Positions 50,134-64,000 of a stretch of 64,000 bases of DNA are shown piece by piece. Source of the DNA: Bordetella sp. H567. GTDB lineage: Bacteria; Pseudomonadota; Gammaproteobacteria; Burkholderiales; Burkholderiaceae_B. Under the pieces are notes generated by a model, which was not told the DNA's origin, made no database searches, and was given only the letters and a program-made list of their open reading frames with translations. The stretch spans positions 2,616,084 through 2,680,083 of the forward strand of contig NZ_CP012334.1 of the NCBI RefSeq assembly GCF_001704295.1, given 5' to 3'. The stretch's first letter is position 1. Every line of letters starts with the position of its first letter. Made by a program: the position numbers and the translations under genes.

Positions 50134-51258
50134 TTACGTGGAGGGCCAGGCCGCGGCCGGGATTTCGACTTCGCCGCGCATCAGCAGGCGCGCGGTGCGC
50201 AACAGCGCGGCGCGGACCACCTTGTGCGGATCGGCGGGATCCAGCGCCAGTTCGACGCTGAATTCGCCGGTGGGGTGCTCCACCGAAATGGTCTGCTCCA
50301 GGCCGGCCGGCGTCCGCGCGATGCCGGAGGCCACGGAATCGTCCATCACGCAGGCGGTGGCCACGGTGACGGCGGCGAGCACGCCGATGGCCTCATGGCA
50401 GACATGCGGAATGAAGCAGCGCGTGGAGACGCTGCCGCCGTCGCGCGGCGAGGCCAGCAGGCACATCTTCGGGAAGGGCTTGCTGGATACATCGCCCAGG
50501 CCCATCAGCACGGCAGCCTTCAGCCGCAGGGCCTCCAGGCGCTGCTTCAATTCCTGGTCGGCATTGAGTTCGGCCACGGTTTCGTAGCCGGTGCGGCCCA
50601 GGTCGGCGGCGCGCATCAGGACCATGGGCATGCCATTGTCGATGCAGGTGATTTCCAGGCGGCCCACGCCGTCCAGCTCCACCACATCCAGCGCGCGGCC
50701 GGTGGGCAGAAGACCGTTGCACACCGATCCCGCGGTATCCAGGAAATTGATCGAGATGGGCGCGGCAGTACCGGGTACGCCATCGATGCGGGCATCGCCG
50801 TCGTAGGCCACGAAGCCATCCGGCGTTTGCACGGTGATGTCGCACTGCATGCCGGTGTTGACGGTCAGCACGCGAAACGTACTGGTATCGCCCTGCGGCT
50901 GAAGCATGCCGGTCTCCAGGGCGAAGGGCACGACGGCCGCCAGCATGTTGCCGCAATTGGGCGTCGTGTCGACGGCGCGCTCGGCCACCGATACCTGGGC
51001 GAACAGGAAATCCACGTCCACGCCCGGCGTGCTGCTGCGTGACACGATGCCCACCTTGCTGGTCAAGGGATGCGCACCGCCCAGGCCGTCGATCTGCCGC
51101 TTGTCCGGCGAACCCATGGCCGCCAGCAGCACCGCGTCCCGGCCGGGGATGTCGGCCGGCAGGTCGGAGGCCTTGAAAAACGGGCCCCGAGAGGTGCCGC
51201 CGCGCATCAGCATGCAGGGGATCGACCGCTGCCTTTGGCTTTTTCGGGGTGTACTCAT
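50134..51258 (-). CDS. galD: 4-Oxalomesaconate tautomerase, GalD type (PrpF family)
   Basis: A 374-residue PrpF/DAP-epimerase-fold isomerase. IPCMLMRGGTSRGPFF, MGSPDKRQIDGLGGAHPLTSK-like sequence, TTPNCGNMLAAVVPFA, CIDNGMPMVLMRA and VEHPTGEFSVEL follow Pseudomonas putida GalD closely. GalD interconverts keto and enol forms of 4-oxalomesaconate before hydration, and the matching hydratase (LigJ type) is at 38549. Other PrpF members isomerise 2-methylaconitate, so that is the main alternative. GGAGACAAC precedes the ATG. A LysR gene is divergent. Confidence 0.88.
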   Translation of the reverse strand: MSTPRKSQRQRSIPCMLMRGGTSRGPFFKASDLPADIPGRDAVLLAAMGSPDKRQIDGLGGAHPLTSKVGIVSRSSTPGVDVDFLFAQVSVAERAVDTTPNCGNMLAAVVPFALETGMLQPQGDTSTFRVLTVNTGMQCDITVQTPDGFVAYDGDARIDGVPGTAAPISINFLDTAGSVCNGLLPTGRALDVVELDGVGRLEITCIDNGMPMVLMRAADLGRTGYETVAELNADQELKQRLEALRLKAAVLMGLGDVSSKPFPKMCLLASPRDGGSVSTRCFIPHVCHEAIGVLAAVTVATACVMDDSVASGIARTPAGLEQTISVEHPTGEFSVELALDPADPHKVVRAALLRTARLLMRGEVEIPAAAWPST

Positions 51259-51327
51259 GTTGTCTCCGAGCTTGCATTATGTTTGCGCCCAGTATCGGCC
51301 GCGCCTGGGATGTACGGGTTGCCTTGT

Positions 51328-51341
51328 ACGGCGATCACCGT
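51328..51341. promoter_or_regulatory. Imperfect dyad in the galD/LysR gap
   Basis: ACGG-CGATCA-CCGT has perfect four-base arms and lies between the divergent tautomerase and LysR starts, followed by an AT-rich stretch. It may be part of a LysR-type site. Weak evidence. Confidence 0.3.
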
Positions 51342-51374
51342 TCTAATATTTTTATTTCGGTGTTGCGGCACAGC

Positions 51375-52625
51375 ATGGAACAGAGCATGGTCGGCGGGCT
51401 CAGCCTGCATCATCTGCACGTCTTTACCGCGGTGGCCACGGCGGGCGGCGTGCGCCGATCCGCGGAAGCGCTGTTCCGGGCCTCCTCCGCGGTGACGCGC
51501 GCCATCGGCCACCTGGAACACAGCCTCGGCGTCGCGCTGTTCGAACGCAAGGCCACGGGCATGCTGCTGACGGCCGCCGGTGAGGCCGTGCTGGTGCGCG
51601 CGCGGCGTATCGAGGCCGAACTGGACGCGGTCCGCGACGAGGCCCTGGCGTTGCGGCGCGGGCAGGGCGGCGCCAGCGGCGTCGGCGCGACCGCCGCGCT
51701 ATTCCATACGCGCCGCCTGACCAGCGCCGCCTTGCTGGCCGACGTGCACCACATGTCCACCGTCGCCCATGCCTGCGGCCTGACGCAGCCGGCCATCAGC
51801 GCATCGATCGCCAAGCTGGAAAAGAACCTGGCGCAGCGGCTGTTCCAGCGCACGGCGCGCGGTATGGTGCCGACGCCGGTTGGGGAGCGCTGGGTGGTCC
51901 GCTTCAAGCGCGTATTGGCCGAACTGCGCAATATCCAGGCGGACATGGCCGCGCTGAACGGCGCGCTGGAAGGCGTGGTGACAGTCGGCGCGCTGCCCAT
52001 GATCCGCACCATGGTGCTGCCCGCGGCCATCGCCAACGTGCTGGCGCGCCATCCCAAACTGCGCATCCGCACGCTGGAAAGCCCGTACGGCGACCTGTGC
52101 GCCCGGCTACTCAGCGCGGAGGTGGATTTCATCCTGGGCGCGCTGCGGCCGCTGCACGACACCTCGCTCAGCACCCGCCTGCTGCTGCACGAGGACATCG
52201 TCCTGATCGCGCGGGCGGGACATCCGCTGGCGGGGCGTCCCGTCGGCTTCGCGGATCTGGCCCGCTACCCGTGGGTGCTGTCGCGGGCCTCCACGCCGCT
52301 GCGCGACCAGCTCAACGATTTCTTCCGGCGCAAGGGGCAGCCGCTGCTGGTGCCCTCCGTCGAAACCGCGGATTTGGCGCTGCTGCGCGGCCTGCTGCTG
52401 CATTCCGACATGCTCACCGCCTTGTCGGTCCATCAGCTGCACTACGAGTTCGAGGCAGGCGGCCTGGCCACGTTGGATTTCGCGCTGGACGGCATGCGGC
52501 GCGAAATCGGCGTGACGACACGCACCGGCGCGCAGCTGTCGCCGGGCGCTGGCGCGCTGCTGGACGAGATATCGCGCCTGGCGGCGTCGATGACGGCGGG
52601 GTCGGCGCGCGCGAGCGCCCGTTGA
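51375..52625 (+). CDS. LysR-type regulator with two N-terminal HTH domains
   Basis: A 416-residue regulator, about 110 residues longer than usual. Two LysR-type HTH domains occur in tandem. The first is at about 10-68 (HLHVFTAVATAGGVRRSAEALFRASSAVTRAIGHLE-like). The second is at about 113-172 (LLADVHHMSTVAHACGLTQPAISASIAKLEK-like, then RGMVPTPVGE). A normal effector domain follows from about 195 (GVVTVGALPMIRTMVLP, ILGALRPLHDTSL). The start at 51375 directly precedes the first domain; the ribosome binding site is weak. It is divergent from the tautomerase and upstream of a LigI-like lactonase, so it probably controls aromatic-acid genes. Confidence 0.85.
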   Translation: MEQSMVGGLSLHHLHVFTAVATAGGVRRSAEALFRASSAVTRAIGHLEHSLGVALFERKATGMLLTAAGEAVLVRARRIEAELDAVRDEALALRRGQGGASGVGATAALFHTRRLTSAALLADVHHMSTVAHACGLTQPAISASIAKLEKNLAQRLFQRTARGMVPTPVGERWVVRFKRVLAELRNIQADMAALNGALEGVVTVGALPMIRTMVLPAAIANVLARHPKLRIRTLESPYGDLCARLLSAEVDFILGALRPLHDTSLSTRLLLHEDIVLIARAGHPLAGRPVGFADLARYPWVLSRASTPLRDQLNDFFRRKGQPLLVPSVETADLALLRGLLLHSDMLTALSVHQLHYEFEAGGLATLDFALDGMRREIGVTTRTGAQLSPGAGALLDEISRLAASMTAGSARASAR

Positions 52626-52826
52626 CGCGGCGCGAACCCCCGGCGGCCGATGGACGGCGAAGCGGGCCCTGCGGCGGCGCGTACGGCTGGCCGCCGACGC
52701 GGCGTGGCTTCCGGGCGCCTCGGCATAAACGGATTAGAGCGGCTGGAACGGTACAAGGCAACCAAGCCGGCGACGCTTGCCCGCATACTCGGCGGCATCA
52801 CCCCCGTCAAAGAAGGAAAAGGCGAC

Positions 52827-53702
52827 ATGAAGAGCGTGCCACCCCCGCATCCCCATCCCAGCAAGCCGGCGTACGCGCTGCCGCCGGGCAGTTGCGACGC
52901 CCATGTGCACGTGTATGGCCCGGTGGCGCGCTTTCCGTATGCGGCCGATCGTGCCTACGACCCGCCGGAGGCGCCCATCGAGCGTTTGCAGGCATTGCAC
53001 CACTTGCTGGGCGTGGAACGGGCCGTCATCGTGCAGGCAACGGTGCACGGGACCGACAACCGCGCGATGCTGGACGCGATCGCGCGTGCGCCGGACCGGT
53101 ATCGCGGCGTGGCGCTGGTGGCGCGGGACGTGTCCGCCGGTGAGCTGCGCCAGCTTCATGCGCAGGGCGTGCGTGGGGTGCGCTACAACTTCATGCCGCA
53201 CCTGGGCAAGTCCGCCGATCCCGACGAGGTGCGCGCCGTCGCCGAACGCATCGCGCCCCTGGGCTGGCATGTGCAGGTCCACGTCACCGCGGCGCATCTG
53301 CCCGCGATACGGGGCTTCCTGGAGTCGCTGCCGGTGCCCTTCGTCATCGACCACATGGGGCGGCCCATGGTGGAGGACGGACTGGAGCAGCCGGCGCTGG
53401 CCGCGCTTCTGGACGTGCTGCGGCATGGTCGCGCCTGGGTGAAGATCAGCGGGCCCGAACGCATATCGGCACGCCTGTCCGCGCAGGCGCAACCGTATGC
53501 GGATGCGGCGCCGTTCGTGCGGCGCATCCTGGACGCCGCGCCGGACCGCACCGTATGGGGCACGGACTGGCCGCATCCTAACGTGCGCGAGATCCCGGAC
53601 GACGGCAAGCTGGTGGAGCTGCTGCCGCGCTACACGGACGATGCCGCCGTGCTCCAACGGGTCCTGGTCGAGAATCCCGCGCGCCTGTACTGGTACGACT
53701 GA
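52827..53702 (+). CDS. Amidohydrolase, 2-pyrone-4,6-dicarboxylate lactonase (LigI)-like
   Basis: A 291-residue TIM-barrel hydrolase. Metal/substrate motifs include GSCDAHVHVYGPVARFPY, VIVQATVHGTDN, GVRGVRYNFMPHLG, PFVIDHMGRPMVEDG, VKISGPERIS and WGTDWPHPNVREIPDDG. These follow Sphingobium LigI, which opens 2-pyrone-4,6-dicarboxylate to 4-oxalomesaconate. Other amidohydrolase-2 lactonases share most of them, so substrate is likely but not proven. AAGGAAAAGGCGAC lies before the ATG at 52827. It follows the double-HTH LysR gene by 200 bp on the same strand. Confidence 0.82.
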   Translation: MKSVPPPHPHPSKPAYALPPGSCDAHVHVYGPVARFPYAADRAYDPPEAPIERLQALHHLLGVERAVIVQATVHGTDNRAMLDAIARAPDRYRGVALVARDVSAGELRQLHAQGVRGVRYNFMPHLGKSADPDEVRAVAERIAPLGWHVQVHVTAAHLPAIRGFLESLPVPFVIDHMGRPMVEDGLEQPALAALLDVLRHGRAWVKISGPERISARLSAQAQPYADAAPFVRRILDAAPDRTVWGTDWPHPNVREIPDDGKLVELLPRYTDDAAVLQRVLVENPARLYWYD

Positions 53703-54030
53703 AGCGATGCCACTGGCCCGCGCCTTCCCGCGGGCAGGATCATCGCTGGCCGAATATATCGTGGTACGAGATATCCCTAATATTCGGGGATGGCGGCCAT
53801 CGTTATGCTTCCTGTCAGTTAGATTTCAACTCGCTTTCTAGGGTGTGCAGGCGCGCCAGCGTCTGCGCGCCCGCCAAGGCGACGCGTCCGTGCGCGGCCC
53901 AGGTCGCCGCCATGGCGCTTCATCACCGCGTCGCACGACCATACCGTGCAAGGGCCCGCTTGCGCCGCGTATCCGCGGTGCGGGATTCGTACGCCCTGAC
54001 GAAATGCCGCCACCACAAGGAGACAGGATC
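53703..54030. other. Intergenic region before tctA
   Basis: A 328-bp gap without a convincing gene. It contains an AT-rich stretch around 53752-53790 with an operator-like dyad at 53759-53769 and, at its right end, the AAGGAG of the TctA gene. An open frame running into tctA from 53845 lacks a start signal and family support. Confidence 0.45.
53759..53769. promoter_or_regulatory. FadR-type GntR operator-like site upstream of tctA
   Basis: TCGTGGTACGA matches the TNGTNNNACNA consensus of FadR-subgroup GntR proteins exactly, and flanking ATATC/GATAT extends the dyad. No GntR gene is adjacent, so the regulator may be encoded elsewhere. Confidence 0.5.
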
Positions 54031-55536
54031 GTGGAACTGCTGCAACACCTCGCATTGGGCTTTTCTGTGGCGTTTTCGCCGGAAAACCTACTCTACGCCT
54101 TGCTTGGCTGCATCCTGGGCACCCTGGTGGGTGTGCTGCCCGGCCTGGGCCCCGTGCCGACGATCGCCATGCTGTTGCCCATTACCTATGTGCTGCCGCC
54201 GGTGGCGGGCCTGATCATGCTGGCGGGCATCTACTACGGCACGCAGTACGGCGGCTCGACCACCGCGATCCTGGTGAATCTGCCGGGGGAAACTTCGGCC
54301 GTGGTGACGACGCTGGACGGGCACCAGATGGCGCGCAACGGGAGGGCGGGCGCAGCCCTGGCGCTGGCCGCGATCGGCTCTTTCTTCGCCGGCACGGTGG
54401 CCACCGCGATCATCGCCGCCTTCGCGCCGCCGCTGGCCGAGGTGGCCTTCCTGTTCGGGCCGGCGGAATACTTTTCGCTGATGACGCTGGGCCTGGTGGG
54501 CGCCGTCGTGCTGGCATCGGGTTCGCTGGTCAAGGCCATTGCCATGATCATTCTTGGCTTGCTGTTGGGGATGGTCGGCACGGACGTGAACTCCGGCGTC
54601 GCGCGCTATGACTTCGGCATTCCGGAACTGCAGGACGGCATCGACTTCGCCATCGTCGCCATGGGCGTGTTCGGTTTCGCGGAAATCCTGGCTAACCTGG
54701 AGTTGAAGGACCAACGCGTGGAGGTGGCCGGCAAGGTGGGGTCGCTCTATCCGAGCCGGCGCGAATTCCGCGAGGCGGCGCCGGCCATCCTGCGCGGCAC
54801 GGCGCTGGGCGCCTGCCTGGGCATCCTGCCCGGCGGCGGCGCGACGCTGTCCGCGTTCGCCTCCTACACGCTGGAGAAAAAGGTGGCGCGCGAGCCGGAA
54901 CGCTTCGGCAAGGGGCATCCGGCGGGGCTGGCGGGGCCGGAATCCGCCAATAACGCGGGCGCGCAGACGTCGTTCATTCCGTTGCTGACGCTGGGCATTC
55001 CGGGCAACGCGGTGATGGCGCTGATGGTGGGCGCGATGACCATCCACAACATCCAGCCCGGGCCGCAGGTGATGTCCAGCCATCCGGACCTGTTCTGGGG
55101 GCTCATCGTGTCGATGTGGATCGGCAACCTGATGCTGGTGGTGCTGAACCTGCCGATGATCGGCATCTGGGTGAAGCTGCTGAAGGTCCCTTATCGCATC
55201 CTGTTTCCGGCCATCCTGATCTTCTGCACGATCGGGGTCTATTCGCTGAACTACAACGTGTTCGACATCTACGTGACCGCGGCCTTCGGCGCGGTCGGGT
55301 ATCTGTGGGCCAAGCTCAAGTGCGAAGGCGCGCCGCTGCTGCTGGGCCTGGTGCTGGGACCGATGATGGAAGAGAACTTCCGGCGGGCATTGCTGCTGTC
55401 GCGCGGCGATTTCACCACCTTCCTGCAACGGCCGATCTCCGCCGGGCTGCTGGCCGCCACCGTCGGGTTGATCGCGATCGTCGCCTTGCCGTCGATCCGC
55501 AAGGGCCGCCAGGAGGCCTTCGCCGAGGAAACTTGA
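54031..55536 (+). CDS. tctA: TctA large permease subunit of a tripartite tricarboxylate transporter
   Basis: A 501-residue inner-membrane protein with about twelve helices. Family blocks are GVLPGLGPVPTIAMLLPITY, YYGTQYGGSTTAILVNLPGE, GLLLGMVGTDVNSG, LPGGGATLSAFASYTLEK and PESANNAGAQTSFIPLLTLGIPGN-like sequence. TctA carries the ion-coupled transport step. The start is a GTG at 54031 with AAGGAG upstream. No TctB-like small subunit is seen nearby in the window. This is the only TTT permease among nine Bug receptors, and it is convergent with the selenoprotein operon, whose two Bug proteins may deliver ligand to it. Confidence 0.93.
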   Translation: MELLQHLALGFSVAFSPENLLYALLGCILGTLVGVLPGLGPVPTIAMLLPITYVLPPVAGLIMLAGIYYGTQYGGSTTAILVNLPGETSAVVTTLDGHQMARNGRAGAALALAAIGSFFAGTVATAIIAAFAPPLAEVAFLFGPAEYFSLMTLGLVGAVVLASGSLVKAIAMIILGLLLGMVGTDVNSGVARYDFGIPELQDGIDFAIVAMGVFGFAEILANLELKDQRVEVAGKVGSLYPSRREFREAAPAILRGTALGACLGILPGGGATLSAFASYTLEKKVAREPERFGKGHPAGLAGPESANNAGAQTSFIPLLTLGIPGNAVMALMVGAMTIHNIQPGPQVMSSHPDLFWGLIVSMWIGNLMLVVLNLPMIGIWVKLLKVPYRILFPAILIFCTIGVYSLNYNVFDIYVTAAFGAVGYLWAKLKCEGAPLLLGLVLGPMMEENFRRALLLSRGDFTTFLQRPISAGLLAATVGLIAIVALPSIRKGRQEAFAEET

Positions 55537-55559: not shown

Positions 55560-56651
55560 CTATCGGGAATCGGCCGGTCCCTCGCCCGGCATCTCGATCC
55601 GCCGCGTCGCCGCGCGCGAGTTGCCGAAGCAGGGGATGTAGACCGAATGCGTGCCCGGGCCCCCGGCCACCATGATGCGTATGTCCTTGGCGGCCCGCGC
55701 GATCGGCAGCAGCGTGTCGTCCTGGATCTCTCCCAATTCCTTGCGGCGCGACGCCCGTGCGCGGTACAGGTCGCGTTCGGCCATGTGGCGCGCCGGCATT
55801 TTCGTCAATTCCCATAGGCGCTGCTGTACGGCGGCCTTGTCGAAGCCGCCGCGCATGCAGATATCCGCGTGCTCGGGGCTGATCATCAGCCAGGGCTCGC
55901 CGCCATGCACGTATTCGTTGCTGGGCGGATGCACCATGGTTTCCGCGAACACGCGCAGGAGTTCATCCACCTGCTTGCTGTGCGTGTTCATGTTCATGGT
56001 GCCTTCGATGCCGACCACCGTGACCGTGCTGTCGCCGGCGGCGAAGCCGTAGTCCGCGCGCAGCGTCGCCCAGGGCGAGCGTGCTTCGTTCTCGGCGCAG
56101 CACATGGTGTAGCGGGCGGGCTGGCCTTGCGTCGCGCGGTCCATCTGGCCGGGCAGGGCGCCGCCGACGTTGCGCAGCAGCAGGCGCACCGCGCGGCCCA
56201 CGGTGGCATTGGCGGGATTGCCCTCGCCCAGGCAGTTCCAGCCGGCATTGAAGCCCAGCGCATCGGACAGCGGCCCGCTGACGATGACCCAGATCGCCAC
56301 CGGATTGGTGGTCGCCTGGATCGCCTGCAGGTTGAAATCGGCATCGGCCAGCGCCCGCGCCGCCGCGACCAGCACCGGCATGGCCTGCGGCTGGCAGCCC
56401 GCCATGACGGCGTTGATCGCGATGCGCTCGGTCGTCGCCGCGCCGAAGGCCGGCGCCAGCCACGCGACCACCTCGTGGCGCGGCAGGCCCGCGCCGGCCA
56501 GCATGCGCTGCACGCGGGCCTCCGTGGGCGGGATGATGGGCAGTCCGTCGGCCCACTGGCGTTCCTGGTACAGGCGGTTGATGGCCTCCAGGTCGTCCTC
56601 GGCCTGGAAAGTGGCGGCTTGTTCTTCCGCCGGCTGTGCGCGGGAAGTCAC
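55560..56651 (-). CDS. Protein of unknown function, separate form of the domain fused in the second selenoprotein
   Basis: A 363-residue cytoplasmic protein. I do not know a named family. Landmarks: ADGLPIIPPTEARV near residue 33, INAVMAGCQPQAMPVLVAAARAL near 75, NATVGRAVRLLLRNVGG near 145, YTMCCAENE near 180 and VAGGPGTHSVYIP near 335. The protein encoded at 59363 carries the same domain after its UGSC part (DGLPIVPPT, NGVMAGCRP, NTTVGR). The start is GTG at 56651, overlapping the UGSC selenoprotein stop as GTGA with GGAGGA upstream, so translation is coupled. Shared fusion and coupling imply it works with the UGSC protein. Confidence 0.75.
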   Translation of the reverse strand: MTSRAQPAEEQAATFQAEDDLEAINRLYQERQWADGLPIIPPTEARVQRMLAGAGLPRHEVVAWLAPAFGAATTERIAINAVMAGCQPQAMPVLVAAARALADADFNLQAIQATTNPVAIWVIVSGPLSDALGFNAGWNCLGEGNPANATVGRAVRLLLRNVGGALPGQMDRATQGQPARYTMCCAENEARSPWATLRADYGFAAGDSTVTVVGIEGTMNMNTHSKQVDELLRVFAETMVHPPSNEYVHGGEPWLMISPEHADICMRGGFDKAAVQQRLWELTKMPARHMAERDLYRARASRRKELGEIQDDTLLPIARAAKDIRIMVAGGPGTHSVYIPCFGNSRAATRRIEMPGEGPADSR

Positions 56652-57220
56652 GGCTGCGTTCCTCCGGCCATCAAGGCCATGAGCTGTTCCGCGCATTGCG
56701 CGGCGATATCGCGGATTTCGTCGCGCGTACGCGTGCCGAAGGGATGCGGGATGACCAGTATCGGAATTTGGGCGCAACCCATCGCCTTGGCCTGGGCACG
56801 GCCCAGGCCGGTGAAGGTGGTCGAGCATACCGTCACGCCGAGACGGCCCAGCTTCGTTATTTCCACACTGTCGTGGACACTCCACGATGTGCAGGAGCCT
56901 CAGTCGCCTGAGCCGCAGATCACAAGATCGCAGTCGGCCGCGAAGCGTTCGATGACGTCGCGGTCCGCGGCGATCGAGGCGGCGCGCTTCTGGTGCGTGA
57001 TGGTGCGCGCGGCGCCGTAGCGGGACACCAGCAGTTCGCCCAGGTCTTCCACCAGGAAGCGGAAATTGGGCTTGGCATTGTCGATGAAGCCGATCACCTT
57101 GCCGGACAGGCCGGACAGCGCCTGCCGCACCGCGGCGCGGGTGGCGGCCATTTCTTCGTCGCTGGCCGTTTCGGCGGCGCGCGGCGCGGTGGGGTCGTAC
57201 AGGGTCACGAGTGCGGACAT
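56648..57220 (-). CDS. UGSC-family selenoprotein (Sec107 encoded by in-frame UGA)
   Basis: Read with UGA as selenocysteine this is one 190-residue protein; a standard gene caller would stop at 56900. The N-terminus (MSALVTLYDPTAPRAAE, AGGAG upstream of the ATG at 57220) leads to GKVIGFIDNAKPNFRFLVE, then CDLVICGSGD-U-GSCTSWSVHD with Sec at residue 107. Reading continues without interruption to IPILVIPHPFGTRTRDEI and stops at 56648. This matches the UGSC family, in which U can be Sec or Cys. A SECIS-like hairpin starts 12 nt after the UGA (apical loop 18 nt after it), and selB lies 4 kb away. Expected role: redox chemistry; substrate unknown. Confidence 0.88.
56871..56887 (-). promoter_or_regulatory. 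SECIS-like hairpin of the first selenoprotein
   Basis: In the mRNA, UCGUGG-AGUGU-CCACGA makes a perfect six-pair stem with a five-base loop. The loop begins 18 nt after the UGA, as in E. coli fdhF, whose loop is GGUCU; G and U occupy the same second and third loop positions. Further CACA/UGUG pairing with a three-base bulge lengthens the stem. Confidence 0.75.
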
Positions 57221-57250
57221 GTGTTTCTCCTGGTATGAATCAAGCGGTGC

Positions 57251-57295
57251 CCTTGGGCCGATGGTCAAGTAGGGCCCTTCGGGCCGATGGTCAAG
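57251..57295. repeat. Short direct repeat between Bug and selenoprotein genes
   Basis: GGGCCGATGGTCAAG occurs exactly twice, at 57255-57269 and 57281-57295, with a 26-bp offset. The right copy overlaps the Bug stop codon, so the repeat probably arose by a small tandem duplication of the gene end. Confidence 0.6.
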
Positions 57296-58292
57296 CCGTG
57301 CCTTTCAGGCCGATGCGTTCGATCAATTGGCCCCAACGGGCGATTTCCGCCTGGATGAAAGCATGAGCGTCGGCCGGCGGATTGGCAACCACCTCCGCGC
57401 CCTGGCTGACGAACTGCTGCATGAGGGCGGGATCGCGCAGCGTCTTGATGGCGGCATCGCGGATGCGCGTCTGCACGGCAGCCGGCGTGCGGGCCTGCGT
57501 CAGCAGCGCATACCACAATGTCGATTGATAGCCGGGGTAGCCTTGCTCGGCAACGGTGGGCAGGTCCGGAGCGATGGGCGAGCGCTGCGCGCCTGTCATG
57601 CCCAGCGCCTTGAGCTTGCCGTCCCTGACTTGCGGGATGGCGGGCAGGGGACTCGTGCATACCACCTTGACCACGCCCGCGATCAGGTCCATCAATGCCG
57701 GTCCGGCGCCCTTGTACGGCACGTGCACCATGTCGATCCCCGCCATGTACTTCAGCAGTTCGACGGACAAGTGGCCGCCCGTACCCGGCCCGGACGATCC
57801 GTAGTTGACCGCGCCGGGATGCGCACGGGCGTAGGCAACCAGTTCCTGGATGTTCGATACGCCCAGCGAGGGATGCGCCACGAAAACCAGCGGCGAACTG
57901 GCGGCGATGGTGATGGGGGCAAAGTCCTTCAGCGTATCGAAGTTCAGGTGCCGCATCAGGGTGGGATTGACGCTGAGCGTGGTGCTGGCCAGATAAAGCG
58001 TGTAGCCGTCCGGTGGCGCGGAGACCGCGAGCTGCGTGGCGATGATCTGGGCGCCGCCGGGCCGGTTGTCGTCGACGATGGCCTGGCCCAGCGCCTGGCC
58101 CAGGCCCGGCGAGATCATCCGGGCCACGATATCGCCCGCGCCGCCGGGCGGATAAGGGATGATCAGGCGGATGGCGTGATCCGGATAGTCCGGCGTCGCG
58201 GAGGCGCCCGTCCAGCGCGGCGCCAGCGCCATGCCGGACAAGGCCGCGGCTCCTTGCAGCAGCCGGCGGCGGTTCTGTTTCGTGTCGGCCAT
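57291..58292 (-). CDS. Bug-family receptor in the selenoprotein operon, Tat-like signal
   Basis: A 333-residue receptor: MADTKQNRRRLLQGAAALSG is a twin-arginine-like signal, followed by YPDHAIRLIIPYPPGGAGD, DNRPGGAQIIATQLA, DGYTLYLASTTLSVNPTLM and HVPYKGAGPALMDLIAG. I use the ATG at 58292 because GGAGGA lies four bases upstream; an upstream ATG (58304) and TTG (58314-58316) are less likely. It lies 70 bp upstream of the first selenoprotein gene and 20 bp after another Bug gene, all on one strand, so it is likely part of the operon. Confidence 0.9.
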   Translation of the reverse strand: MADTKQNRRRLLQGAAALSGMALAPRWTGASATPDYPDHAIRLIIPYPPGGAGDIVARMISPGLGQALGQAIVDDNRPGGAQIIATQLAVSAPPDGYTLYLASTTLSVNPTLMRHLNFDTLKDFAPITIAASSPLVFVAHPSLGVSNIQELVAYARAHPGAVNYGSSGPGTGGHLSVELLKYMAGIDMVHVPYKGAGPALMDLIAGVVKVVCTSPLPAIPQVRDGKLKALGMTGAQRSPIAPDLPTVAEQGYPGYQSTLWYALLTQARTPAAVQTRIRDAAIKTLRDPALMQQFVSQGAEVVANPPADAHAFIQAEIARWGQLIERIGLKGTA

Positions 58293-58312
58293 ATCGTCCT
58301 CCATGCCTTCGA

Positions 58313-59302
58313 TCAAGGTGCCACCCGCAGTTCAGGCTGGCGCTGCACCAGGTCCTGCCACTGGGCGATGTCGCGCTTGATGAACTGTTCCAATTCCCGC
58401 GGCGTGCCGCCGACGATCTCCGCGCCCGTTGCCTTCAGGGCCTGCCGCACGTCGGGCGTGGCCAGGGCCTTGACGATTTCGTCGTGATAGCGCGCCACGA
58501 TGGAAGGCGGGGTGCCCGCGGGCAGCAGCGCGGCGTACCACGAGCCGGTATCGAAGCCCGCCACGCCGGCCTCGCCCATGGTCGGCACCTCCGGGAACAG
58601 CGGCGTGCGCCGCGCGCCGGTCGTGGCGAGCGCGCGCAGCTTGCCGGCATGGATCTGGCCGGCCACGCCGATGGCGTTGAAGAACAGCACCTTGACCTGG
58701 CCGCCGACGATGCCGGTGACGGCATCCACGCCGGTCTTGTAGGGCACGTGCAGCAGGTCCACGTTGGCCCGTACCTTGAACAGTTCGCCTTCCAGGTGCG
58801 AGCTGGATCCGCTGCCGGCCGAGCCGAAGGTCAACGTGTTCGCGTGGGCGCGCGCGTAGGCGATCAGCTCCTGTACCGTACGCACGGGCAGCGACGGGTC
58901 CACGACCAGCAAGTCCGGCAGGGTGGCGATGAGCGAGACCGGCGCGTAGTCCTTGATGGGGTCATAGGGCAGCGACCGCCGCACCGCCGCATTGATGGCA
59001 TGGCTGCCTGTGATGATCAGGATGGTGTAGCCGTCCGGCTTGGACTTGGCCAATTGATCGGACGCGATCACGGTACCCGCGCCGGGCCGGTTTTCCGGCA
59101 CGACGGGCTGCCCAAGCGCGACGGTCAGCTTGGCGGCAAGCAGGCGCGCGACCGTATCCACGGCCCCGCCGGGGCCCGCGGGAATCAGCATGCGTATCGA
59201 ATGGTCGGGCCACGGCCGGCTTTGGGCGTGCGCGGGTAGGCATGCGGCGGCCGCCATCGTCACCGCGACGGCGCATGCGAGTCTGTAAATAAAGGCCGTC
59301 AT
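58313..59302 (-). CDS. Bug-family receptor in the selenoprotein operon, Sec signal
   Basis: A 329-residue receptor: signal peptide ending near LPAHAQSR (about residue 27), then WPDHSIRMLIPAGPGGAVD, PENRPGAGTVIASDQLA, DGYTILIITGSHAINAAV and HVPYKTGVDAVTGIVGGQ. The ATG at 59302 follows a GTG; AAGGGG lies upstream. It starts 60 bp after the second selenoprotein stop. The binding core differs from the adjacent Bug protein, so the pair is not a recent duplication and may recognise different ligands. Confidence 0.9.
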   Translation of the reverse strand: MTAFIYRLACAVAVTMAAAACLPAHAQSRPWPDHSIRMLIPAGPGGAVDTVARLLAAKLTVALGQPVVPENRPGAGTVIASDQLAKSKPDGYTILIITGSHAINAAVRRSLPYDPIKDYAPVSLIATLPDLLVVDPSLPVRTVQELIAYARAHANTLTFGSAGSGSSSHLEGELFKVRANVDLLHVPYKTGVDAVTGIVGGQVKVLFFNAIGVAGQIHAGKLRALATTGARRTPLFPEVPTMGEAGVAGFDTGSWYAALLPAGTPPSIVARYHDEIVKALATPDVRQALKATGAEIVGGTPRELEQFIKRDIAQWQDLVQRQPELRVAP

Positions 59303-59362
59303 CACGATCCCCTTGCTCCATGGATATGGCCGGCGGCACGGACGACGGCCGCGCCGCCGGCT

Positions 59363-61117
59363 TCATTGTTTCGATGCCGTCTGTCGCAGCAAAGTCTCCC
59401 AATCGGCGGGCAGGTCTATCTTCTTCGCGGTGGGGAAACCCAGGAAGGCGTTGTGCGCGAAGATGTAGGCGTTGTTGCGCAATGGGTCGCCTCCCACCGC
59501 GATCATCAGATCCGCGGGCTTCCAGACGATGGGCACTCGTCGGCGCGGATCGTCCGATTCATGGAAGAACGCGGGGATCAGCCCCTGCCGCACGTCCTCG
59601 GCCAGGTTCCATACGCCCCGTATATTCCAGTCGCGCAGCTGCCGCTCGAAATCCTCCGCCGGCCGGCGCGCGTGCTGGAACAGCCATTCCTGCACGCGCG
59701 CCTTGCTCCAGCCCGCGCGGGCCAGCGTGCGCGCCGTGATGGGTGTGATGACGGCCAGCGGCCGCAGCGTGCCCTTGCCATGGCTGGTCGTGAACGTGAT
59801 CTGCCAGTTGTTGAAGCGTTCGATCGAATCGGCCACGTAGGGCAGCAGCTGTTCCGGTTCGGATCCCGTCACCGACGACAGGGTGCCGCCGCCGGTGAAG
59901 CGCGAAATCGAGACCACGTTGTCGCCGCGCTGGAATCCCAGGTCCATGGCGATCGTGGGCCAGCCGATCTCCTCCAGCACGTCCTCGTTCTCGGCCAGGA
60001 CCACGCGCCATGTGCTGCCGAACGTGCCCTTGTCGGTCTGGTGCAGATGAAAACCCGCGACGTTGCGCAGATACAGCCGCCAGAACCGGCCCACCGTGGT
60101 ATTGGGCAGGAATCCATCGCGCAGCGCCCCCTGGGTGTAATTGAAGCCCAGCTGCTTGATGATGGGCCCGTTCAGGATGATCAGCGTTTCCGCGCCGGGC
60201 GTGTTGCCGCTGTGTTCGACGCCGTAGCGGGGATCGGCCATGGCTTCCGCCAGCGCCACCAGGATCGGCATGTATTCGGGCCGGCAGCCGGCCATCACGC
60301 CATTGACCGCCACGTTCCAGACCGTCGCGGCGCGCCGGTCGGGCAGCAGCACCCCCAGCACCTGGTCGGGATCGCGGTCGGTGAAGGCCAGGAAGCGTTC
60401 GATCGCCGCGCGCGTGGGGGGCACGATGGGCAGGCCGTCCGTGTAGCCGTCGCGATAGAAGCGCTCGTTGACGTCGAAGAAGTCGCCCTTGGCGACGATG
60501 TCGCGCGCGCGGGGCTCCGCCGCCGCGGGGCCATCGGCCGCGGTGGGGGTGGACGTCAGCGTGCGCACGACCTCCGCCAGCGTGGTTTCCAGGATGTCAT
60601 GGCGCAGCTGGGCATCGCTCTTGTCGCCGATGTGGCCGGGCACCAGCGCGATGGGCAGGCTGCGCAGCCCCAGGCCTATGGATGTTGCCGCCGCCTGGCG
60701 CACGAAGCCCTCGCACGTCAGCGACGTGGTGGGAAATCCGGCCAATTCACATGCCGCGCTGGCCCGCAACACGGCGGGCGTGCAGCTGCCTCAGCAGGCC
60801 ATGCCCGAGATGACGGCATCCACCCCGAGCTCGCGCAGGCGTTGGGGCAGGCGCGCCAGGGCATCCCGCTCGCCCGCGCCGTGGGTGCTGCCGAATTCGC
60901 GCCAGGAGACGAAGCGGATGTCCGGGTAGCGTGCCTTCAGGCCCTCTTCCAGCAGGGTGAAGACCTGGTCGCCCTTGTACAGCTCGTCCCACAACTGGGC
61001 GACGGTCTTGCCGTTCAGGTCGTCCAGGCGGGGTGCCAGGCGCATGGCCTTTTGCTGCATTTCGCCGCGCGGCCAATAGGCTTCGAAGTAGCCGCCGTTC
61101 TGCTTGCTGGCATCCAT
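59363..61117 (-). CDS. UGSC-type selenoprotein fused to a large domain of unknown function (Sec109 encoded by UGA)
   Basis: With the UGA at 60791-60793 read as Sec this is a 584-residue protein; otherwise it would be split into a 108-residue fragment and an unstarted open frame. MDASKQNGGYFEAYWPRGEM follows AAAAGGAG. The N-terminal domain ends in VDAVISGMAC-U-GSCTPAVLRAS, where Cys108 directly precedes Sec109. FPTTSLTCEGFVRQ and PIALVPGHIGDK complete it. From about residue 240 comes the DGLPIVPPT domain (NGVMAGCRPEYMP, NTTVGRFWRLYLRNVAG, VAVGGDP-like end) shared with the protein at 55560. A SECIS-like hairpin follows the UGA. Divergent selB supports Sec insertion. Confidence 0.87.
60762..60779 (-). 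promoter_or_regulatory. SECIS-like hairpin of the second selenoprotein
   Basis: In the mRNA, GCCCGC-CGUGUU-GCGGGC forms a perfect six-pair stem with a six-base loop containing GU. The loop begins 17 nt after the UGA. Outer GCUG/CAGC pairing with a three-base bulge extends the stem. Size and position agree with the hairpin of the first selenoprotein. Confidence 0.75.
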
Positions 61118-61183
61118 CGCTGTCTCCTTTTCCGCGCCCGATTTTTGTTGATGTCGCCTGGACGCGTGACTAGAATAAATGAC

Positions 61184-61199
61184 ATACCATGGTATACCA
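61184..61199. promoter_or_regulatory. Overlapping palindromes between the selenoprotein operon and selB
   Basis: ATACCATGGTAT (61184-61195) and TGGTATACCA (61190-61199) are perfect palindromes sharing six bases. They lie midway in the 164-bp divergent promoter region. TGGTATACCA resembles GntR-type operators. A regulator here could control both directions; no candidate gene is adjacent in the window. Confidence 0.6.
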
Positions 61200-61281
61200 A
61201 TTGTAGGCAGGCGGATAACGTGAACAAGCTCTGTTGCAAATCGGCCCTGGGACGATCAGCCGGTGGGGAAGCACCCCCACG

Positions 61282-63210
61282 ATGATCATCGCGACCGCGG
61301 GACATATCGACCACGGCAAGACCACGCTGGTCAAGGCGTTGACCGGCGTGGATACCGACCGGCTGCCGGAAGAGAAACAGCGCGGCATCTCCATCGACCT
61401 TGGTTTCGCCTATTGGGACACCCCGGATGCCGTGACCGTGGGCTTCGTCGACGTGCCGGGGCATGAGCGCTTCGTGCGCAATATGTTGGCCGGCGTCTGT
61501 GGCATCGACTATGCCTTGCTGGTCGTCGCCGCCGACGACGGCATCATGCCGCAGACCATGGAGCACCTGCACATTATCGATCTGCTCAATGTGCCGCGCG
61601 GCATCGTGGCCTTGACCAAGACCGACCGTGTGACGGCCGAACGCGTGCGCGAGGTCGCCGCCGGCGTCCAGGCGCTGATCGCTTCCACCTGCCTGGCGGG
61701 CGCGGCGGTCATGCCGGTCTCCACGCAGACGGGGCATGGCGTGGCGGCGCTGCGCCAGACGCTGGCCGAGGCCGCGCGCGCGCACCAGGGACAGCGTTCG
61801 GCGGGACGCAATTTCCGCCATGCCGTCGACCGCGCCTTTACCGTGCCGGGCAGCGGCACCGTGGTCACGGGCACGGTCTTCGACGGTACCGTGACGGTGG
61901 GCGACCGCCTGGTGCTTTCGCCGCGCGGAACCGAAGTCCGCGTCCGGGGCATCCAGAAGAACGGACAGTCGGTGCGCCACGCCAACGCAGGCGAACGCTG
62001 CGGGCTGAACCTGGCCGGGGTCGCGGTGGAAGAGGTGGGACGCGGCGACTGGGCGGTGTCGCCGCTGATCCACGCGCCCACGCAGCGGCTGGACGCACGC
62101 CTGCGACTGCTGGATTCGGAAGCGGCGGAATTGAAGCACTGGACGCCCGTGCGTCTGCACCTGGGCACCGCGGAAGTCCTGGCGCGCGTCGCCATCGGCC
62201 GCGGCGCGGCGGTGGCCCCCGGCGCCGCGGCCGTGGTGCAGCTGCGGCTGGAAAAGCCCATCGCGGCGCTGCACGGCGACCGCTATATCCTGCGCGACCA
62301 GGCCGCGCGCCGTACGCTGGGCGGCGGCGTGGTCATCGATCCGTATGCGCCGCGGCGGCGGATGGATCCGGCCGTGCGGGCGGCGCAGATCGACGCGCTG
62401 TCGTGCGGCGACGCCGCCGATGCGCTGCAGGGGCTGCTGCGGTGTGCGCCCTCCGGCGTGGATATCCTCCAGTTCCAGCGTTGCTACAACCTGGCGCCGG
62501 ACCGGCTGGAGAGCCTGCTGCGCGCCGCCGGTGTCATCGAGCTGGGCAGGACGCCCCGCCTGGCTTTCCCGCGCGCGATGATCGCGGCGATCGGCGAACG
62601 CGTGGTGGCGGCGCTGGAGGCCCGGCATGGCGACGATCCGCGCTTCCTGGGCAGCGATATCGCGCACGTGGCGCGGCGCTGCGCGCCGCGATTACCGCAG
62701 GCCGTCTTCGCGGCCATGCTGCGCATGCTGGCACAGGAAAAGAAGCTGGAACTGAACGGCAGCCTGGTATCGCTGCCACGCCTGCGCGCCACGGTGCGCG
62801 CGTCCGACGAAGCGCTATGGCAAAAGGTGGCCCCCTTGCTGGACGCCGCGGGCTTCAAGATCCCGCCCGTGGAGGAAGTGGCGGCGGCCGCGAACATCAA
62901 GCCGGCCGTGCTGGAGGACATGCTGTACCGCAAGCTGCGCGACGGCGATGTCTACCTGGTGGCGCCGGGCCGCTTCTGCCCGCGCGCGACCATCGCGCGG
63001 CTGGTCGTGCTGGCCGGCGAGGTGGCCGGCGAGCAGCCCGGCCGGCAGTTCACCGCCGCCCAGTTCCGCGATCGCTGCGGCGTGAACCGCAAGCTGGCCA
63101 TCGATATCCTGGAATGCATGGACCGCCACGGAATTACCGTGCGCGAGGGCAATGTGCGCGTCCTGCGCAAAGGCGTCGCCATGATGGAGGAGGAAGGGCA
63201 CCATGTCTGA
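61282..63210 (+). CDS. selB: Selenocysteine-specific translation elongation factor SelB
   Basis: A 642-residue GTPase that brings Sec-tRNA to UGA codons marked by SECIS hairpins. G1 is [10 protein letters not shown], the switch I region [11 protein letters not shown]3 DVPGHERF and G4 TKTD. Domains II and III follow (about 175-350, [42 protein letters not shown]-like). The C-terminal half is four winged-helix modules that bind SECIS RNA, ending [22 protein letters not shown]-like. E. coli SelB has 614 residues. The ATG at 61282 precedes the GTPase domain; the ribosome binding site is modest. It is divergent from the selenoprotein operon and overlaps the following flavoprotein gene by eight bases. 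selA and selC are not in the window. Confidence 0.95.
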
Positions 63211-64000
63211 AACGGAACACGACGTTGTCGTCATCGGCTCGGGCATCACCGGCTTGACGGCCGCGCGGCAGCTGCTGCGCGACGGCTGCGGCGTGGCCAC
63301 CGTGGAACAGGGCATGTTCGGCGGGCTGGTCATCAACATCAATGAGCTGGACGGCAGCATAGGGGGCTCGGGCGCGGACCTGGCGTCCGACCTGATGATG
63401 GAAGTCGGCGACCTGGGTGTCGAGCCTCTTGCGCAGGCCGCGGTGGCGGTGGAACGGCTGGACGATCGCTGGCGCATCGCGCTGGCCGATGGCGGGGCCT
63501 GCGTCGCCGGCGCGGTAATCGTGGCGAGCGGCGCGCGCTTGAAGCGCCTGGACATTCCGGGCGAAGCGGAATTCGAGCATCGCGGTGTCGGCCAGTGCGC
63601 CGACTGCGATGGACCGCTGTACCAGGGGCAGGACGTGGTCGTGATCGGTGGCGGCGATTCGGCCTTGCAGGAAGCCCTGGTGCTGGCGCGGTACTGTCGC
63701 CAGGTGCATGTGATCGATCGCGAACCGGCGCTGCGGGCGCGGCGGCACCTGGTCGACGCCGTGCTGGCCTGCGAAAACATCGTGGTGCGGCACGCGAGCG
63801 AACCGCGGGCCATCCACGGCAGCGACGGCGTCGAAAGCGTGCGCGTGGAAAGCCTGACGGGCGAGGGCGCCACGGATATCGCGTGCAGCGGGCTGTTCGC
63901 CTATATCGGGCTGGCGCCCAACAGCGCATTCCTGCCCGCCTTCGTGGCGCGCGATGCGGGTGGCTTCGTACGCACCGATGCGTCGCTGTGCGCCGCGCCC
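63203..64000 (+). CDS. Thioredoxin-reductase-like FAD/NAD(P) oxidoreductase (partial, 3' end outside window)
   Basis: At least 266 residues; the frame is still open at the right edge. The FAD motif is VVVIGSGITGLTAARQLL at residues 8-25, the redox pair is CADC in GQCADCDGPLY near residue 132, and the NAD(P) motif is VVVIGGGDSALQEALVL near 148. This is the order of bacterial thioredoxin reductases, but sequence around MFGGLVININELDGS differs from housekeeping TrxB. The ATG at 63203 overlaps the selB stop, preceded by GGAGGAGGAAGG, so the two are coupled. The simplest role is reduction of the nearby UGSC selenoproteins with NAD(P)H; that is inference. Confidence 0.85.
   Translation, partial: MSETEHDVVVIGSGITGLTAARQLLRDGCGVATVEQGMFGGLVININELDGSIGGSGADLASDLMMEVGDLGVEPLAQAAVAVERLDDRWRIALADGGACVAGAVIVASGARLKRLDIPGEAEFEHRGVGQCADCDGPLYQGQDVVVIGGGDSALQEALVLARYCRQVHVIDREPALRARRHLVDAVLACENIVVRHASEPRAIHGSDGVESVRVESLTGEGATDIACSGLFAYIGLAPNSAFLPAFVARDAGGFVRTDASLCAAP

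Follow-up and report, generated by a model that had tools for sequence, protein, structure and literature searches.

Selenoproteins of the UGSC family paired with a DGLP partner in Bordetella sp. H567, a candidate two-part, flavoprotein-reduced enzyme

A stretch of 64,000 nucleotides from Bordetella sp. H567 (the window; C1:2616084-2680083 of a single-contig genome of 5.53 Mb) carries two selenocysteine (Sec) genes of the UGSC family, each joined to a large partner that we call DGLP after its signature DGLPxxPPT. We read the locus as two copies, one fused (gene 1) and one split (gene 2), of a two-part Sec enzyme that would be reduced by a flavoprotein and would carry out reductive bond cleavage, and we give this reading a probability of about 0.58. 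Judged from the sequences, the unit is UGSC plus its large DGLP partner, not UGSC plus a transporter. The new elements are the near-constant, co-varying two-component unit, the kinship of its Sec subunit to the Sec domain of GrdB and PrdB, and an expansion to 19 copies in one related genome.

Both genes contain an in-frame UGA (contexts MACUGSCTPAV in gene 1, where the frame is open on both sides, and GSGDUGSCTSWS in gene 2, where the UGA lies inside a long open frame). No other in-frame TGA in the window's six frames (1308 in all, these two included) precedes G[SATG]C, which bears out the claim of an earlier note on this DNA that two genes carry an in-frame UGA followed by Gly-Ser-Cys. The genome check that the note proposed for selA, selC and selD found all three: selA lies at C1:3952135 (588 bits) and selD at C1:5205846 (439 bits), and a tRNA-Sec with anticodon tca lies at C1:3956221 (76 bits). 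SelB, encoded in the window, clears the TIGR00475 cut-off of 242 bits and matches the winged-helix families PF09106 and PF09107. Searches of the genome for formate dehydrogenase (TIGR01553) gave partial matches under the cut-off, none with a TGA, and the GRDB and GRDA models had no match, which leaves the UGSC genes as the sole Sec candidates among the few families searched for.

Homologues were compared across 138 UGSC hits from 41 loci of the source and related genomes and from 80 GTDB loci; these are related sequences, and their counts are not independent events. The motif could be scored in 133 of the 138, the remainder being two UGA genes with a variant motif (L064, L072), one fragment (L127) and two genes without the motif (L129, L142:6102). 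The Sec site is UGA in 125 of the 133 and Cys in the other eight. After two duplicate or unusable Sec windows were set aside (n=123), the 42 nt directly following the UGA proved more stable than protein-preserving shuffles (mean z -1.64, 69% below -1), compared with mean z values of -0.43 to 0.00 in control windows at least 15 codons from the UGA and -0.20 in the eight Cys homologues. The conserved positions described for the bacterial Sec insertion sequence (SECIS) are G23, U24 and a bulged U17 (PMC8659212). With the U of UGA counted as nucleotide 1, the apical loop begins at nucleotide 23 in 91/123 windows, with G23 in 110/123 and U24 in 108/123. The serine at residue 7 after Sec is encoded by AGT in 94 of 96 cases, AGT standing at 6% elsewhere in these genes, while only two of the eight Cys homologues have serine there, both as AGC. 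This codon choice is the clearest sign of selection on the predicted SECIS.

The SECIS-like hairpins that the earlier note saw after both UGAs of the window are present (-16.5 kcal/mol in 51 nt and -22.3 kcal/mol in 49 nt; in gene 1 the GU is shifted by one base, to 22-23), but taken singly they are no better than dinucleotide shuffles (z -1.51 and -0.93, not significant). The SECIS claim therefore rests on the comparison across homologues, in which selection appears at the level of the family. No Rfam family matched in the window at gathering scores, and an RNAalifold consensus over the 123 mixed windows yielded no structure. The insignificance of the single hairpins, and the fact that a UGA by itself is a stop, are what can be said for the view that both UGAs are plain stops or errors, with only remnants in the frames that follow. 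We consider this extremely improbable: homologues keep the UGA at the same codon or replace it with Cys, conservation persists beyond it, the putative SECIS is under selection and the Sec machinery is complete. Sec coding with a SECIS under selection is what the sequences show.

Both proteins belong to the Pfam UGSC family (PF24696; 97.4 and 147.2 bits against a cut-off of 25), with the in-frame UGA in a U-G-S-C motif and a SECIS supported at family level. The resolving Cys of this motif is nearly invariant. Structure models were obtained for gene 1 (predicted local distance difference test, pLDDT, 90.3; predicted template modelling score, pTM, 0.92) and gene 2 (pLDDT 92.3). The latter is an alpha/beta domain of five strands alternating with helices, and its nucleophile (Sec) position falls at a helix N-terminus; its alpha/beta order appears to differ from that of the thioredoxin-like fold suggested for UGSC in 2008 (PMC2398784). 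The structural matches listed are three-layer alpha/beta proteins, and a fold missing from that list proves nothing. A structure search with the fused gene 1 model gave no convincing relative, but a single domain took up the whole list of matches, so the result says little about the DGLP fold.

The second domain of gene 1 and the open reading frame at 55560-56651, which the earlier note had not mentioned, are the same domain, DGLP (31% identical), and it had no match in Pfam or NCBIfam. It is fused to UGSC in gene 1 and overlaps it as GTGA in gene 2. Of the 44 UGSC hits in the 41 loci of the source and related genomes, 42 are accompanied by a DGLP on the same strand no more than 1.5 kb away; the exceptions are a locus with DGLP 3.5 kb away (L048) and one at a contig edge (L072). 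A GTDB scan with DGLP patterns alone, of which the best 80 of at least 583 relatives were examined, showed the matched DGLP to have a same-strand UGSC at no more than this distance in 74/80 loci (75/80 counting any DGLP on either strand). Taken together, 134 of the 138 UGSC hits are paired with DGLP by the same strand and distance limits; the median gap is 28 bp, and UGSC precedes DGLP in 107 cases and follows it in 27. The two proteins also co-vary. Their distances correlate at r=0.86 across 18 paralogue pairs of a single genome, a value free of species history because all 18 pairs come from one genome, and at r=0.89 (8 pairs) and r=0.56 (6 pairs) in two other genomes; over all 126 pairs that meet the length limits, r=0.85. 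The near-constant pairing and the co-variation therefore suggest that UGSC and DGLP are two halves of one enzyme, and we infer that they form a complex. When short UGSC, DGLP and fused proteins were aligned together, the short UGSC rows fell on the DGLP part, and this alignment was discarded.

The Sec subunit is remotely related to the Sec domain of GrdB and PrdB, which are the B components of glycine/sarcosine/betaine reductase and of D-proline reductase; this turns the loose analogy to clostridial Sec reductases drawn in the earlier note into remote homology with the Sec residues in register. The GrdB model TIGR01917 was matched by 28 of 56 UGSC proteins (best 2.2e-6), and the GrdF, GrdH and PrdB models were matched as well. 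Profile comparisons placed Sec on Sec with both GrdB-like proteins (six sequences; 94.6%, P 6.6e-8) and PrdB-like proteins (ten sequences; 93.5%, P 2.3e-7), and the gene 2 protein aligns with GrdB over 86 columns around Sec. The coordinates of the NCBIfam model matches agree with the published Sec positions of Clostridium sticklandii, at residue 350 of 436 in GrdB and 152 of 242 in PrdB (PMC3091704).

Further points in common with GrdB-GrdE are a second subunit that accompanies the B subunit, multiplication into copies specific to different substrates (PMC10838667) and a link to thioredoxin (PMC3091704). In contrast, UGSC lacks the N-terminal part of GrdB of about 340 residues (PF07355), DGLP is unlike GrdE, and the source genome has no GrdA (PF04723), the selenoprotein needed by glycine-type reductases; because GrdA is absent, no acetyl-phosphate route is implied. 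PrdB-PrdA resembles UGSC-DGLP in having a short Sec subunit of similar size, which in the mechanism proposed also supplies the Cys that resolves the selenoether (PMC3091704). It differs in that UGSC has the motif U-G-S-C, a DGLP partner instead of pyruvoyl PrdA and a thioredoxin reductase (TrxR)-like protein instead of PrdC.

PF07355 had no match in the source genome, and a GrdB search of 398 genomes of the phylum gave weak matches in 7. PF07355 relatives occur in 21 of the 33 genomes behind the GTDB loci, and full-length ones read past the end of the model continue with UGA (for example VILTST-U-GTSTRSGA). GrdE-like genes adjoin GrdB in three loci, two of them confirmed by profile, and GrdA was found in 4 of 30 genomes searched, all four of which also have full-length GrdB. 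Six GrdB-like genes continuing past the UGA (L190-L195) were recovered from Chloroflexota, Rokubacteria and Deltaproteobacteria metagenome-assembled genomes (MAGs); PF07355 stops just before their Sec, and four have UGTSTRSGA with no Cys after Sec. Twelve short PrdB-like genes with an in-frame UGA followed by Pro (U-P; L196, L197, L199-L202, L204-L209) were found in genomes of Chloroflexota, Rokubacteria and Proteobacteria in which DGLP/UGSC loci are present too, but with no DGLP in the 1.5-kb flanks of these genes. By their sequences they are another kind of Sec protein of the same superfamily.

A reductant is suggested by the flavoprotein gene next to selB. Its product has FAD and NADPH domains and a redox-active CxxC (CADC), and scores 207.3 bits with TIGR01292, below the curated cut-off of 343.45; it is the divergent one of two TrxR-family genes in the source genome, the other being canonical (385 bits). 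TrxR-family genes recur in the system: 7 of 21 lie inside fetched UGSC loci against 0.40 expected (seven genomes, one of which had none there). In 6 of 121 loci, from relatives of the source genome, Reyranella and Neobacillus, such a gene is encoded on the same strand at a distance of at most 100 bp. One locus (L080:2699-6935) is an apparent operon DGLP-UGSC-TrxR-selA-selB, joining Sec biosynthesis genes to their user; an Arthrobacter plasmid has an operon trxB-trxA-DGLP-UGSC, and a Variovorax plasmid has trxB near DGLP-UGSC. The comparative search suggested in the earlier note found that UGSC and the DGLP-domain protein also cluster with selB and the flavoprotein elsewhere (L079, L080). The core of that note is upheld, a Sec-based enzyme system related to clostridial Sec reductases and tied to flavoprotein and selB. 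The TrxR linkage echoes the electron feed of glycine reductase, in which NADPH, thioredoxin reductase and thioredoxin supply GrdA and GrdB (PMC3091704).

From these features we infer a substrate class, a reaction and an electron route. The UGSC subunit would be a compact alpha/beta domain with the Sec of Sec-Gly-Ser-Cys at a helix N-terminus, and DGLP would probably bind and activate the substrate, as GrdE and PrdA do, without sequence relation to them. With DGLP holding a small carboxylate-type substrate, the selenolate would attack an electrophilic carbon in it and displace a leaving group; the UGSC Cys would then resolve the selenoether to a selenenylsulfide, as proposed for PrdB, and the TrxR-like flavoprotein, with or without thioredoxin, would reduce it using NADPH. 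GrdA would not be required in this cycle, and the substrates would differ among the paralogues (three in the source genome, up to 19 in a relative). Reductive displacement at the carbon beside a carboxylate or similar group would be expected because of the analogy to GrdB, which cleaves C-N, and to FarB-FarE, a proposed fluoroacetate reductase acting on C-F (PMC10838667).

The same redox features could belong to a scavenger of peroxides or organic oxidants, in which Sec reduces hydroperoxides and the TrxR-like protein recycles it. The UxxC-type motif and the TrxR/thioredoxin linkage would suit such a role, and the reference list of PMC3091704 includes a paper whose title concerns peroxidase activity of GrdB. 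This alternative is unlikely, since up to 19 divergent copies with a median identity of 25% fit substrate diversification better than stress defence, as do the catabolic genes nearby (CoA transferases, MmgE/PrpD, HpcH/HpaI, amidohydrolases). A dedicated, co-varying large partner is moreover unusual for a peroxidase. Still less probable is a non-redox Sec in a nucleophilic lyase, isomerase or racemase, for which the Cys-based superfamily of Asp/Glu racemases and maleate isomerases would be the model. The modelled alpha/beta fold with the nucleophile at a helix N-terminus is compatible with it, and there was a single sub-threshold glutamate racemase match (E 0.086), but the GrdB/PrdB match is far stronger, and the nearly invariant resolving Cys and the TrxR linkage speak for redox chemistry.

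Several observations weigh against the reductive two-part enzyme. A hydrolytic, isomerising or peroxidatic role is possible, and the genes around the pairs are diverse and do not point to one reaction. The NCBIfam UGSC equivalog NF041046 was matched at 41.2 and 117.5 bits and its cut-off of 125 not reached. The canonical bulged U17 of the Escherichia coli SECIS is missing, with U17 in 3/123 windows, C there in 120/123 and U16 in 93/123. Some UGSC relatives beside DGLP, the two motif-less genes above, lack U/C-G-x-C, and 6 of the 80 GTDB loci have a DGLP gene with no same-strand UGSC nearby, at least one of them (L111) at a contig end. DGLP showed no resemblance to three GrdE-like proteins, two of them profile-confirmed (probability 0.3%), or to the N-terminal part of GrdB, and a sequence search of the PDB with the UGSC and DGLP profiles returned nothing credible, which leaves DGLP without a credible solved relative. 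TrxR lies in only 10 of 121 loci, and most pairs would therefore need a distant reductase if the proposed electron route is right.

The earlier note had also made uptake of a small acid through Bug (TctC) receptors and TctA an integral part of the system. Two such receptors do sit between the Sec genes, TctC and TctA components of the tripartite tricarboxylate transporter are both present by profile match, and divergent selB, the CADC flavoprotein overlapping it (by 8 nt) and the convergent TctA are all there as described. A dedicated uptake-and-reduction system, in which these transporters import the substrate of the neighbouring Sec enzymes, would gain from the 51 TctC genes found within 5 kb of pairs against about 25 expected, an enrichment of about 2-fold in four genomes whose background, taken from candidate numbers (up to 110 scored per genome), serves as an upper bound. 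TctC makes up 59 of 241 immediate neighbour genes, 41 of them on the same strand, and is operonic in 34 of 121 loci. In the source genome, a Bug receptor stands beside the third UGSC gene as well. We nevertheless regard such a system as rather unlikely. The nearest TctC does not co-vary with the pair: its distances correlate with those of UGSC at r=0.09 (n=64) and, in one genome, r=0.05 (n=11), and with those of DGLP at r=0.15 (p 0.011, n=64). The four genomes hold 167-417 TctC candidates each, and no TctC occurs in the fetched stretch of 22 loci from Chloroflexota, Rokubacteria, Binatia, Neobacillus and Natrialba, although a Natrinema plasmid locus does carry TctC. The enrichment is real but modest, with almost no co-variation, and uptake as an integral part is not borne out.

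Other neighbours include short-chain dehydrogenase/reductase (SDR), MmgE/PrpD, enoyl-CoA hydratase, CaiB CoA transferase, 2-hydroxyacid dehydrogenase, amidohydrolase 2, HpcH/HpaI aldolase and DUF6282 genes. Their counts are approximate, the genes having been called by a home-made codon-usage script, and their names come partly from Pfam and partly from our own assignment of cluster sequences; the Pfam tally covers 120 of 125 neighbour proteins (at most two per large cluster) drawn from 144 operonic genes, with 25 of 166 families listed. Because the neighbours are catabolic and varied, different copies seem to serve different pathways, and the neighbours are too diverse to indicate a substrate. 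Plasmids of Sporomusa and Vibrio carry DGLP-matching proteins of fused length (L185:7323-10492 and L187:5052-9059; about 560-575 aa) whose genes adjoin aconitase X and DUF126, a possible substrate clue. An annotated phosphosulfolactate synthase lies near UGSC-DGLP in Natrinema (L182:4895-5362) and Arthrobacter (L188:5713-6501).

The distribution of UGSC is patchy among near relatives and broad beyond them. In a sample of 121 genomes (the source plus relatives of its genus, family and order), UGSC scored above the cut-off in 11, with a marginal twelfth match, and since none was found in the five same-genus genomes sampled it appears sporadic in the genus. One genome has 19 copies, one 9 and one 6, all with TGA, and five genomes have a single Cys copy. 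The 19 genes (L047-L065, genome G076) share a 6.2-Mb genome with 386 TctC candidates. The source genome has a third UGSC-DGLP fusion, also absent from the earlier note (C1:4058399-4058911; L016, L044:5212-7979), with the motif UGAC; it immediately follows a Bug receptor gene of the same strand. GTDB loci come from Beta-, Alpha-, Gamma- and Deltaproteobacteria, Chloroflexota (Dehalococcoidia, SAR202), Rokubacteria and Neobacillus bataviensis, with Cys-type loci in the haloarchaeon Natrialba asiatica and in one MAG each of Sphingomonas and Binatia. Plasmid-borne DGLP occurs in Acidovorax, Variovorax, Paracoccus, Arthrobacter, Sporomusa, Vibrio and haloarchaea, among others.

UGSC-DGLP might accordingly represent a third branch of the Sec 'component B' reductases, with no pyruvoyl partner of a known type, no GrdA, a dedicated TrxR-like reductant and substrate-specific paralogue families (19 in one relative), a proposal to which we would give slightly less than an even chance. 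If true, a whole mode of reductive catabolism that depends on selenium would have gone unrecognised in Proteobacteria, Chloroflexota, Rokubacteria and Bacillota, with haloarchaea among the carriers of Cys versions. The common picture of Sec use is one or two formate dehydrogenases; a genome with 19 copies would employ selenium as a general catabolic tool. Among the selenoproteins of metagenomes, UGSC has stood out as an orphan since 2008, when 255 Sec sequences were reported from the Global Ocean Sampling (GOS) data, with a fusion to a domain called Unknown_1 and a suspected thioredoxin-like fold of UGSC (PMC2398784). It is in print as an uncharacterised family (PMC2398784, PMC13188914), and UGSC-motif selenoproteins are cited in genomes with a CUA-anticodon tRNA-Sec (PMC5330540). 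Unknown_1 is probably DGLP. As to the suggestion that the pathway was undescribed, UGSC fused to an unknown domain had been in print since 2008. The literature search, with subscription papers and preprints outside it, found no account of UGSC-DGLP pairing or of a GrdB link; in the sources consulted UGSC figures as a single protein, and a general partner, kinship to GrdB, linkage to TrxR, selA and selB and a 19-copy expansion are not described. With a partner, a tie to Sec enzymes that cleave C-N (for FarB, as proposed, C-F) through a selenoether, and a likely reductant, a 'hypothetical' protein becomes a testable enzyme.

Table 1. Features of the Sec locus, in window coordinates
Feature	Position	Strand	Evidence
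Gene 1, fused selenoprotein, UGSC and DGLP domains, 584 aa, Sec109	59363..61117	minus	PF24696 1.3e-27
In-frame UGA of gene 1, Sec109 (codon 109 of 584)	60791..60793	minus	
Predicted SECIS hairpin of gene 1, 45 nt from UGA	60749..60793	minus	-21.9 kcal/mol; family-level support
DGLP domain of gene 1, partner domain	59399..60526	minus	without a match in Pfam or NCBIfam
Gene 2, short UGSC selenoprotein, 190 aa, Sec107	56648..57220	minus	NF041046 4.8e-34, PF24696 6.9e-43
In-frame UGA of gene 2, Sec107 (codon 107 of 190)	56900..56902	minus	
Predicted SECIS hairpin of gene 2, with G23-U24-G25 in the loop and AGT as Ser codon	56858..56902	minus	-16.5 kcal/mol
Free-standing DGLP partner, probable GTG start overlapping gene 2 stop (GTGA)	55560..56651	minus	
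selB, Sec-specific elongation factor, divergent from gene 1	61282..63210	plus	TIGR00475 426 bits
Thioredoxin-reductase-like flavoprotein, CADC, 304 aa, running 117 bases beyond the window	63203..64000	plus	TIGR01292 207 bits
TctC (Bug) receptor, loosely associated	57291..58316	minus	PF03401 5.4e-70
TctC (Bug) receptor, loosely associated	58313..59305	minus	PF03401 4.9e-69
TctA permease, convergent, start uncertain, loosely associated	53845..55536	plus	PF01970 7.9e-161

Searches of PHROGs with UGSC and DGLP and a megablast of the locus against plasmids gave no match. Upstream of TctA, on the plus strand and convergent with the DGLP gene, lie a LysR regulator and an amidohydrolase (PF04909) at 51249-53702 of the window. 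Just beyond the window (L002:9278-13565, minus strand) and convergent with the TrxR-like gene stand genes for an ornithine cyclodeaminase family protein, an FAD-dependent enzyme of the DAO family, an M19 dipeptidase and a TctC, which resemble amino-acid or dipeptide catabolism.

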